From Haloferula sp. BvORR071 (GTDB lineage: Bacteria > Verrucomicrobiota > Verrucomicrobiia > Verrucomicrobiales > Akkermansiaceae): a stretch of 64,000 bases of DNA. The stretch spans positions 1 through 64,000 of the forward strand of contig NZ_BATP01000004.1 of the NCBI RefSeq assembly GCF_000739615.1. The letters are read 5' to 3'. The notes beneath the pieces are model-generated. The model made no database searches. It was not told where the DNA came from and was given only the letters and a program-made list of their open reading frames with translations. Position 1 is the first letter of the stretch. Every line of letters begins with the position of its first letter. Both the position numbers and the translations under genes were made by a program. Shown piece by piece: positions 51,115-54,556 of the stretch.

Positions 51115-51230
51115 CGTTCGTCGTCGGCACATCCTTCCTGCTTCCAGCAGCCACGGCAAGAACCCCGGCTTACGGCGCATGAAGGAGAGGTGAATTTTTC
51201 TGTCTCATCCCGGGTGGCTGCGGTGTCTTG

Positions 51231-53282
51231 ATGGAAACGATGGCGGACAATCCATTCGAACTTCTGCAACGCTTCAACCGTGACCGCTCCGAAGCGGCCT
51301 TCCGCGAACTGGTCCGGCAGCACTCGCCGCTGGTCTTTGCCACCGCCCTGCGCCGCCTGAATGGCGATCGCAGTGCCGCGCAGGATGTGATGCAGGAGGT
51401 CTTCACCCTGCTGGTGCGGAAATCCTCCGGACTGGATCCAGCGCAGCTTTCCGCGTGGCTCTACCGCCAGACCTGCCGCCGGGCAGCCAACCACGTCCGC
51501 AGCGAAAGCCGGCGGCGCCAGCGCGAACTCGTCTCCATGGAAGCCATGAACCACCCTCCCACCCCTGATGAGTCCGACCGCGAACTGCTGGCCCGCGAAC
51601 TCGACTCCGCGATGCTCAGCCTGCCTTCGTCCGACCGGAGCGCGCTGGTCATGCGCTATTTCGAGGATCGAGATTTCCGCAGCGTGGCGGGAACCCTTGG
51701 CTTGAGCGAGGTCGCCGCCCGCAAGCGTGTCTCGCGGGCCTTGGAGAAGCTCGCAGCCGTCCTCAAGCGGCGCGGCATCACAACCGGTAGCGCCTTACTC
51801 GGCAGCACGATGAGCAGCATGGGGCGAAGCATTCCACCAGATTCCATGGTGGCGAAGGTTTCACTGCAGGCCATGAAGTCTCTACCCGCAGCGGGATCAC
51901 CATCGCTCTCCGGGCTCATGAAGCCTGCGCTCGCGGGTGTCGCCTTGGTGTCCCTCATCTCTGCTGGCCTCCTCGCGAAGTCCCGCCCGACACCAGTGCC
52001 TCCGGTGCCCATGGCAAGCACTCCCACATCCGCCCGAGAATCCGGACTCGCCTATCTGCTGCGACCGGTGACGGATACCTCGATCGAAAACCTGATCGCG
52101 GAGATCAAACGCAACCAGGCGGGTCCCGGACATTCACTGGTGACGCTGCGGCTGAGGGCAATTCTCGATCGCGTCGCCATCGCGGATATCCCTGCATTCG
52201 TCGTGCTGGCCGGGGAAAAGCTCACGGTGGCCGAGCAGACTGCCTGCTACGCCCCCCTGTTTGAGCGCTGGCTCGACCAAGATCCGGCGGCAGCGCTGAG
52301 CTACGTCCTCCTCAACAAGCCAGGGGAGAAGGTCGATGCCGAGACATCCACCTACATGTTAGGCAATCTCTTCCGGGCTTGGGTGGAGAAGGACCTGAAG
52401 CAAGCGGATGCCTGGCTACGTGAGCATTGGGGCGACGAGGGATTCAAGGAGCATCGCTGGAACGGCAGCGTGGGCGAAGGATTCGCGATGGAGGTGGCGA
52501 ACGACTATGTCTTGCGCGGCAACGTAAGCGACGCCTTCGAGTTCATCCGAGCTCTGCCGAATGCCGATGCGCGACGCCGTTGCTTGCGCGGACTCGCTGG
52601 CGAAGATCCCTATGGCAACGCTTGGCACAATATCGATCCGGATCGCCTGTTAGAGGTCCTCCGGGCCTTATCGGGATTTCCCGAAACAGAGCCGGCGGGA
52701 GAGGCACGCGTGCTCTTGTGGCAAAGCCTCAACCGAAGCCGGCCGGAAGACGCCGCGAAGGTGCTAGCAGCCCTGAGCCCGCAGGAACACTTCGAAGCCG
52801 CCCTCGCCAAGACCGGTCACTACAGCAAGCTCGCCTCGCGGACCAAAACAGCCGGCGGCGGAACGATTTCTCATTTCGACCAGATCACGGATACCACCGC
52901 AGGTGAAGCCGACGCGATGGCCGCAGGTCTTGCCGCCGGGCTTTCGCGCCAAGAGATCTTGAAGGCCATCGGTGCTGCACTGGTATCCAAGGGCAATCCC
53001 GCAGTGGCAGTGCCGTGGCTGGCGGGACACCGCGAGGAAGTCGAAGTCGACGCGGTTTTACTCGGGGCGATCCGGGATGCTGCGCGGCGGGAGGATCACA
53101 GCAATCTTATCCTCTGGGCTGCGTGCCTGAGGGATCCTGATCTGCGCATGAGTATCGCGCGAGCTGGATTCCGCCAGATCCTCGCTCAACCGGGCGATAC
53201 CGCGAAGAACCTATTGGCCGATCCCAGCTTGGATGCCGGGTTGCGGGAAGAACTCGTGGAAATCCGTGATGCCAAGCCATGA
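51231..53282 (+). CDS. ECF sigma factor fused by a membrane helix to a large C-terminal repeat domain
   Basis: 683 residues from ATG 51231 (TTG 51228 also possible). Residues 20-95 are sigma region 2 (FRELVRQHSPLVFATALRRL, AAQDVMQEVFTLL, LYRQTCRRAANHVR). Residues 125-178 are region 4 (SLPSSDRSALVMRYFED, FRSVAGTLGLSEVAARKRVSRAL). A single membrane helix lies at 231-249 (KPALAGVALVSLISAGLLA). The C-terminal 430 residues have W..xDPxAA repeats such as RWLDQDPAAALSY and AWVEKDLKQADAW. The sigma part would be in the cytoplasm and the repeat part outside, or the membrane segment may be a tether. It overlaps the next gene by 4 bp. Confidence 0.82.
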   Translation: METMADNPFELLQRFNRDRSEAAFRELVRQHSPLVFATALRRLNGDRSAAQDVMQEVFTLLVRKSSGLDPAQLSAWLYRQTCRRAANHVRSESRRRQRELVSMEAMNHPPTPDESDRELLARELDSAMLSLPSSDRSALVMRYFEDRDFRSVAGTLGLSEVAARKRVSRALEKLAAVLKRRGITTGSALLGSTMSSMGRSIPPDSMVAKVSLQAMKSLPAAGSPSLSGLMKPALAGVALVSLISAGLLAKSRPTPVPPVPMASTPTSARESGLAYLLRPVTDTSIENLIAEIKRNQAGPGHSLVTLRLRAILDRVAIADIPAFVVLAGEKLTVAEQTACYAPLFERWLDQDPAAALSYVLLNKPGEKVDAETSTYMLGNLFRAWVEKDLKQADAWLREHWGDEGFKEHRWNGSVGEGFAMEVANDYVLRGNVSDAFEFIRALPNADARRRCLRGLAGEDPYGNAWHNIDPDRLLEVLRALSGFPETEPAGEARVLLWQSLNRSRPEDAAKVLAALSPQEHFEAALAKTGHYSKLASRTKTAGGGTISHFDQITDTTAGEADAMAAGLAAGLSRQEILKAIGAALVSKGNPAVAVPWLAGHREEVEVDAVLLGAIRDAARREDHSNLILWAACLRDPDLRMSIARAGFRQILAQPGDTAKNLLADPSLDAGLREELVEIRDAKP

Positions 53283-54556
53283 ATGCTTTCCTCCAGCGCC
53301 AAGTCCTCAGCTTCGGGTGTGCCGCTTTGCTCACTGCGGCAGTTTGGTATGCCTGCTGGCCGCAGAGGCTGCCGGTGGCAAGTGCCCGATCTCATGCCGA
53401 GCCTTCACCACAGGAGCCAAAGTCCAAGAACTGGCAGGAGGCCGTGGCCCAAACTGCAAGCGCGGAAGGCAATGAGGCGCGCCTGGCCGCGGCCGTTCGA
53501 CTGGGTGAGGTGCCCACAGCCGAGATCCCGGCGCTTCTCGATTCGATCGAGTTGGTCAAGGACCGGCAGCTGACTCTTGCGGCCAAAACCTTGCTGATCC
53601 GCTGGGCCTCCGAGGATGGCAAGGCAGCCGCGGAGTGGTCGTGGCTCAAGTTCCGGGCGGATGGCATGTGGTATTTCGTGCTCCTGGAGATCGCGGGGGC
53701 ATGGGCATGGCGAGACCCGGAGGGCCTTGCCAAGTGGACGATGGAGATCGTGGCGCAGCAAGGCCCCGGCTTTCAAGACAGCCTGTCAGTTGAGGAAGTC
53801 TTGAAGCGCGATGTGCCGGTGATCGAAAGGGGGCGGGGCGCGAAGATCTGCGAGCTGCTGATCCGACAATCGCCGCGCTGGGCCTTCGAGCTCTTCCTGA
53901 AGCTTCCGGGATGGTCCACCGGAGATGGCTTCATGACCTCCTCGCTGCAGAGTCCCGAGCAGATCCAAGATGCTCTGCTGGCCTTCGACCTTGAGTCTAT
54001 GAATCTGGATGCGACTCGCGGAATCAGCGGCCCTGCCATCTACGCCCACAGCCTGCTCACCGATTGGCGGAAATTGGATCCGCAGGGCTTTGCATCCTCG
54101 CCTTATGCCAAGTATCTCAAGCTGGGGATTTCGAATGAGGAGATTGGCCAATACCAACGCTGGACGACCCTGCCGAAGGAAGAGCGCGGCACAGCCGCCG
54201 CGAAGATGCTGGAGGCTGGAACTAACCAAGCGCGGTCCGGCTTGGTGCTTTCGATGACGGAGGATTGGGCCAAGGAAGACCCCGCGGCTTGCCGCGAGTG
54301 GCTGGCTTCATTGCCAGCGGAATTGGCCGAGGCCGGAGCCCGGCCCTTCGCGATGGCAGCGGGCGGGAGCTACGTCGAATCGATCTGGAAGGAGAGTGAG
54401 TCATTTGACACCTCGCTCCGTGAAGGATGCCGGATCGACTCCCACAAGGCCTGGCGGAAAGACCATCCGGAGGGCAATCCGGACATGAATGGCTGGAGTG
54501 AGGAGGCGAAGCAGGCGTGGAGCGATCTGGATGCGCTGTGGCGGGTGGAGAGATGA
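53279..54556 (+). CDS. Membrane-anchored W-x3-DPxAA repeat protein coupled to the sigma factor
   Basis: 425 residues. The N-terminus has one hydrophobic helix (QVLSFGCAALLTAAVWYACW). The rest is helical and contains repeats of the same type as in the sigma factor: RWASEDGKAAAEWSWL, AWAWRDPEGLAKWTM, DWAKEDPAACREWLASLP and others, spaced irregularly. Such repeats are common in verrucomicrobial exported proteins and have no known function. The start overlaps the sigma-factor stop (ATGA 53279-53282), so translation is coupled. It may bind or regulate the sigma factor, as an anti-sigma partner would, but there is no direct evidence. Confidence 0.72.
   Translation: MNAFLQRQVLSFGCAALLTAAVWYACWPQRLPVASARSHAEPSPQEPKSKNWQEAVAQTASAEGNEARLAAAVRLGEVPTAEIPALLDSIELVKDRQLTLAAKTLLIRWASEDGKAAAEWSWLKFRADGMWYFVLLEIAGAWAWRDPEGLAKWTMEIVAQQGPGFQDSLSVEEVLKRDVPVIERGRGAKICELLIRQSPRWAFELFLKLPGWSTGDGFMTSSLQSPEQIQDALLAFDLESMNLDATRGISGPAIYAHSLLTDWRKLDPQGFASSPYAKYLKLGISNEEIGQYQRWTTLPKEERGTAAAKMLEAGTNQARSGLVLSMTEDWAKEDPAACREWLASLPAELAEAGARPFAMAAGGSYVESIWKESESFDTSLREGCRIDSHKAWRKDHPEGNPDMNGWSEEAKQAWSDLDALWRVER

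Follow-up and report, generated by a model that had tools for sequence, protein, structure and literature searches.

For most extracytoplasmic function (ECF) sigma factors, sensing is the task of a separate anti-sigma factor located in the membrane. In the groups ECF48, ECF52 and ECF53, including SCO4117 of Streptomyces (ECF52), an ECF sigma domain, a membrane helix and an extracytoplasmic domain are combined in one protein, for which proteolytic activation has been proposed (PMC8999054). IutY, involved in aerobactin signalling, also unites a sigma factor and a membrane protein in one chain, and is released by site-2 proteolysis (PMC8999054). In co-component systems, such as VtrA/VtrC and ToxR/ToxS, the gene of a membrane-tethered transcription regulator overlaps with the next one, which encodes another membrane protein whose periplasmic domain completes the sensor (PMC9214523). 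Here we analysed two overlapping genes, ORF1 and ORF2, located at 51,231 to 54,556 in a stretch of 64,000 nucleotides (the window; positions 1 to 64,000 of contig NZ_BATP01000004.1, assembly GCF_000739615.1) from Haloferula sp. BvORR071 (Verrucomicrobiota). ORF1 encodes an ECF sigma factor fused through a single membrane helix to a long tail, and ORF2 a second membrane protein with a domain related to that tail. According to the best-supported reading the pair would work like a co-component system, of which it is not a member because its output domain differs. We assign a probability of about 0.6 to such a co-component-like membrane sigma factor, in which tail and partner would act as sensor, and the sigma domain would probably be released by proteolysis and read its own promoter.

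Like the members of ECF48, ECF52 and ECF53, ORF1 has a C-terminal membrane helix and, as suggested by the charges and swapped domains described below, an extracytoplasmic domain. In those groups, which belong to the Actinobacteria, a zinc-finger anti-sigma region precedes the helix, whereas ORF1 has neither an HxxxCxxC motif nor an anti-sigma match in Pfam; a related partner is, moreover, undescribed for them. IutY and the FecI-FecR fusions differ in their FecR-type anti-sigma domain, for which Pfam gave no match in ORF1. In addition, IutY works with a cell-surface receptor, whereas TonB-dependent receptors, sought beside the relatives of ORF1 with a TonB_C tail, were not evident from the reading frames. 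With the co-component systems the locus shares a membrane-tethered regulator and an overlapping downstream gene for a protein with an N-terminal helix. However, their output domain is a winged helix of the ToxR/CadC type instead of an ECF sigma factor, their periplasmic folds are alpha-beta and lipocalin-like, whereas ORF1 and ORF2 appear in low-confidence models as all-alpha repeats, and their periplasmic heterodimer is obligate, while ORF1 and ORF2 may associate. ECF42 and ECF41 have cytoplasmic tails (TPR and SnoaL, respectively) and lack a membrane helix, which is conserved in ORF1, where no SnoaL or TPR match was found. An initial annotation of the locus had stated that no system of this exact layout is known. 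The kind itself is not new, one-piece ECF-membrane fusions and two-gene co-component logic both being known (PMC8999054, PMC9214523), but the combination with a paired, domain-swapping partner was not found described: no such Verrucomicrobial family appeared in the literature searched, and since the main ECF classification papers lay outside that search, a group number may exist.

All features of the two genes lie on the forward strand. The reading frame of ORF1 is open from an ATG at 51231 to 53282 (683 aa), and residues are counted here from that ATG. Translation probably begins at the ATG at 51240 (51240..53282, 680 aa), since the N-termini of the orthologues fall some three residues further on and this start leaves room for a promoter-like element that extends to 51229. 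Sigma-70 region 2 (51309..51515, residues 27-95; PF04542, Sigma70_r2, 1.1e-9) and region 4 (51594..51752, residues 122-174; PF08281, Sigma70_r4_2, 2.3e-10) both exceed the Pfam cut-offs, in agreement with the intact regions reported in the initial annotation, and their presence together with the absence of region 3 classifies ORF1 as an ECF (group 4) sigma factor. TIGR02937 matched with 72.7 bits (cut-off 42.9), and for TIGR02989 (Sig-70_gvs1, the Rhodopirellula/Verrucomicrobium family) a score of 49.7 bits was obtained, below the curated cut-off of 124.55. In a profile search of solved structures (PDB) the sigma domain matched SigE, SigH and SigW; the matches of ORF1 were confined to this domain and ORF2 had none. 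A scan of the collection with the ORF1 protein returned a distant Bacteroidetes ECF as the sole match, and a tblastn search of plasmids aimed at Planctomycetes returned only one Vibrio ECF. Use of a start codon after region 4 was rejected because regions 2 and 4 are under strong constraint among the orthologues.

Region 4 is followed by a conserved linker of about 50 residues (51768..51923, residues ~180-231) with the consensus RG-I/V-x-x-S-x-x-x-L-x-x-x-L ... A-P-x-x-L, in which G182, L190, L194, P203 and A214 are conserved columns across about 60 fusions. The same pattern is present in other families of Verrucomicrobiota, and one may speculate that the linker is a built-in inhibitory element. 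Behind it lies a single membrane helix (51927..51983, residues ~233-251, N-in) with a hydropathy of 1.78, annotated earlier at residues 231-249. Its median start in 86 fusions is residue 235 (quartiles 229-238), and the net charge is +1.08 before the helix against +0.02 after it (Wilcoxon p 9e-9), i.e. positive-inside; a further helix of that kind is absent from the sigma part and, with one exception, from the tail. A segment that is not membrane-inserted, which had been named beforehand as an outcome contrary to the proposed fusion, does not agree with this conserved, positive-inside helix. TonB_C and alpha-2-macroglobulin domains act outside the cytoplasm. Given the positive-inside helix, the presence of such extracytoplasmic domains in the tails of relatives and the lipoprotein signals of some partners, we infer that the sigma domain is located inside and the tail outside the cytoplasm.

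The tail of ORF1 (52035..53279, residues 269-683, 415 residues), putatively extracytoplasmic and all-alpha, contains degenerate W-DP-AA repeats and shows a mean column identity of 46% in an alignment of nine orthologues. ORF2 (53279..54556, 425 aa) starts within the stop of ORF1, the two sharing ATGA at 53279-53282, and encodes a hydrophobic N-terminal membrane anchor (53303..53359, residues 9-27, hydropathy 1.66) followed by a W-DP-AA repeat domain. The second membrane protein overlapping by 4 bp had thus been correctly recognised, as had the similar type of the two repeat domains, whereas the “about 430 residues of W..xDPxAA repeats” were overstated for ORF1, in which a single clean unit (WLDQDPAAA, 347-355) is accompanied by a few degenerate copies, and right for ORF2 with its four copies. 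Pfam matched no domain in ORF1 behind region 4 or anywhere in ORF2, and the partners in general are poorly covered by Pfam families. Single-sequence AlphaFold2 models of both proteins were helical (all-alpha), with low confidence (pLDDT 51 and 57). At the profile level, the ORF1 tail and the ORF2 domain are related, hhalign giving 93% (E 3e-7) against ORF2 and 98% (E 2e-14) when the wider partner family was taken instead. In several other pairs tail and partner are similar even by blastp (L080, 36% over 173 aa, 1e-24; L024, 28% over 169 aa, 3e-18; L022, 25% over 369 aa, 5e-19; also L122 and L123). Repeats alone could make repeat proteins match each other; L024 and L080, however, represent other domain types. 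The relatedness of the two domains and their encoding side by side make it plausible that an ORF2-type partner binds the ORF1 repeats.

The genome itself (7.8 Mb) encodes 17 further proteins with the sigma front of ORF1, in which a helix and a long tail are almost always present. Within the 18 genomes of the genus that were searched, five from other species contain full-length relatives of ORF1, eight in all, with unbroken frames (33-44% identity), and every one of these relatives is followed by a relative of ORF2 at -4 bp; where ORF1 copies occur in tandem in the orthologous genomes, each retains its own partner. Tail and partner are conserved at full length among the orthologues, with 27-40% identity and invariant columns. 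In total 64 sigma-fusion frames were scored in the genus, two or three of which are fragments or misread. With a strict cut-off, the next protein carries an N-terminal membrane anchor or signal peptide for 38 of these 64 (26 at exactly -4 bp), at least two more partners (L029, L032) fall short solely on the hydropathy cut-off, and lipoprotein signals are present in some partners (L088, L091, L103, L029). Across 195 genomes of the phylum, the ORF2 family is essentially confined to the neighbourhood of ORF1-type sigma genes. Outside the genus, several further families of Verrucomicrobiota have fusions with scores far higher than those of ordinary ECFs; many lower-scoring matches, being ordinary short ECFs, were left out of this count. 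The search for the fusion elsewhere in Verrucomicrobiota, suggested with the initial annotation, therefore yielded both full-length conservation in five genomes of the genus and sigma-linker-membrane fusions across the phylum, and an artefact of one genome could be rejected.

In a tree of sigma domains the fusions cluster, requiring 3 changes compared to 13.4 with shuffled labels, although many deep forks are unresolved, so that this grouping falls short of demonstrating one origin. The exceptions are for the most part short copies that appear truncated, together with one frame that was probably misread. In genome G008 a third partner copy stands beside a degenerate sigma fragment (G008:C5:129348-131898, L073), and a partner in the same genome has an in-frame TGA, which points to the emergence and decay of tandem pairs. 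Seven sigma fusions of 510-570 aa (L025, L035, L084, L092, L097, L100 and L106) had no partner that could be found; in L025 and L035, whose tails were read, the tail is of a different kind.

The position of the tail can be occupied by other domains. TonB_C was found there in 7 of the 24 fusions scanned (best 3e-20). These belong to family f5 (L117, L119, L124, L133, L135, L137 and L140, the last also with Sel1 repeats), and mostly precede a gene for a second small membrane protein. The partners in operons of the TonB_C type bear a domain that is the tail in other members (L121, L123, L126, L136), which indicates an exchange of domains between tail and partner. In family f26 (L178 and L179), the protein of L178 (1713-8465, reverse strand) has 2251 residues and consists of an ECF sigma domain, a membrane helix and alpha-2-macroglobulin domains (MG2, A2M, bMG10). 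Over 260 aa the tail of L181 (917-3787, reverse strand) shares 76% identity with the protein of the adjacent gene, which has a signal peptide, suggesting that a secreted protein and a sigma tail derive from a recent duplication. In the long ECFs of Planctomycetes (ECF01-Gob and relatives) the sigma domain is followed by an Ala-rich linker of similar kind and a membrane helix, and the tails vary; L178-L182 presumably resemble this type. It may be, with the odds about even, that these proteins form a phylum-wide class in which an ECF sigma-linker-membrane module receives many plug-in extracytoplasmic domains (W-DP-AA repeats, TonB_C, alpha-2-macroglobulin, Sel1, TPR, DUF3738), often with a co-encoded partner sharing the domain of the tail, and in which each pair controls its own promoter; such a class would be the sigma counterpart of co-component signalling and a main form of transmembrane signalling in Verrucomicrobiota.

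Directly upstream of ORF1 a promoter-like element (51190..51229) was identified, which consists of a T-rich block with CTGTCTC (TGTC at 51201-51204), a spacing of 16 bp and CGGTGTCTT (51221-51229). An element of the same kind is found at the same position in the orthologous operons. Many fusion genes have a T-rich block about 40 nt before the start codon, with TGTCCG (family f1) or TGTGCGG/TGTTCGG (f5, f30), followed about 16 bp further by a -10-like part that varies by paralogue group, namely CGGTGTCTT in the ORF1 group and GCCGGATA and GGAGGAATA in others. A simplified pattern was present in 52 of 106 fusion genes; the other genes of these loci, 275 in number, had it in 5 cases, and in shuffled sequences it occurred in 5 of 106 on average (maximum 12). 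In the genus, the strict pattern returned sigma operons and scattered chance-like sites. The element is so near to the start codon that almost no leader remains. The frequency of the pattern at fusion genes would be expected if each sigma factor transcribes its own operon, and suggests autoregulation via this putative promoter.

The fusion, the pairing, their conservation, the N-in topology, the relatedness of tail and partner and the shared upstream element, all read from sequence, are the basis of the following scheme, in which domain binding, signal, proteolytic release and promoter function are proposed steps. A single chain would place the ECF sigma domain in the cytoplasm, followed by the linker, one inner-membrane helix and, on the periplasmic side, a tail that forms an alpha-solenoid. 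ORF2, held in this membrane by its own anchor and carrying a related solenoid, would most likely associate with ORF1 via the periplasmic domains, so that the two jointly form the sensor. Without signal the sigma domain would be held inactive at the membrane; with signal it would become active, most likely via cleavage in or beside the membrane helix, and the freed sigma factor would read promoters of the type TGTC-N16-CGGTGTCTT, its own first, resulting in positive feedback on the pair. Proteolysis is favoured for the release step because of the precedent of IutY and SCO4117 (PMC8999054). A site-2 protease of the M50 family is encoded in the genome, a weak support given that this family is nearly universal.

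Several observations weigh against this scheme. With the cut-off applied, about 40% of the fusions are without a partner, which is thus no general feature, and the L025 and L035 classes consistently have none. Similarity between tail and partner of the window pair itself is not found by blastp and appears with profiles only, and the structure models of both proteins are of low confidence. A scan of the own genome with the strict ORF1-type pattern gave the ORF1 site and two chance-like sites, hence no further credible target. Finally, the sequence evidence fits proteolysis and intact tethered signalling alike.

The latter is the main rival, unlikely in our estimate yet to be taken seriously: as in CadC and ToxR, the signal or partner binding would reshape the linker and the still tethered sigma factor would recruit RNA polymerase. 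The linker is conserved across the phylum while the tails diverge, as expected if it holds or releases the sigma domain, and ToxR/ToxS provides a precedent; the described one-piece ECFs IutY and SCO4117, on the other hand, are thought to be cleaved. The relatedness of tail and partner and the existence of partnerless fusions would also fit a partner that is a decoy or stabiliser instead of a sensor, having arisen by duplication of the tail and guarding the sigma protein against proteolysis, much as ToxS protects ToxR. We consider this quite improbable, since the different domains in tail and partner of the TonB_C-type operons are more than a copy of the tail. That the tail is a mere anchor, with a constitutively active or unused sigma factor and a pair within a decaying expanded family, could be concluded from the lack of targets beyond its own operon and from the degenerate sigma fragment and interrupted partner of G008, but is made very improbable by the full-length conservation of tail and partner with their invariant columns. 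The weakest alternative, in which the hydrophobic segment is not inserted and the repeats are cytoplasmic like the TPR tails of ECF42, could appeal to the moderate hydropathy of the ORF1 helix and was rejected as scarcely tenable given the helix position and charge bias of the 86 fusions and the TonB_C, alpha-2-macroglobulin and signal-peptide relatives of the tails.

With the co-component-like reading, sensor, membrane anchor and sigma factor would be one chain, present in about 18 copies in this genome, and outside conditions could act on transcription directly, no additional protein being needed as sensor. As the promoter-like element is legible in the sequence, each pair is directly testable for binding, cleavage and transcription. 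The TonB and alpha-2-macroglobulin tails suggest that one module wires very different outside events to transcription, and the paired related domains offer a handle on the origin of receptors by duplication.

More than 100 stretches of the own genome match the W-DP-AA repeat family, many of them away from sigma genes and some clustered, e.g. at C64:505630-524478 and C40:101069-114152. Divergent from ORF1 and ORF2, the window contains three tandem genes for membrane-anchored endonuclease/exonuclease/phosphatase proteins (PF03372; 48247-51180, reverse strand). They were considered as targets of the sigma factor and not retained: relatives of these genes also adjoin the pair in genomes G004 and G008, whereas the other orthologues have no such neighbours.
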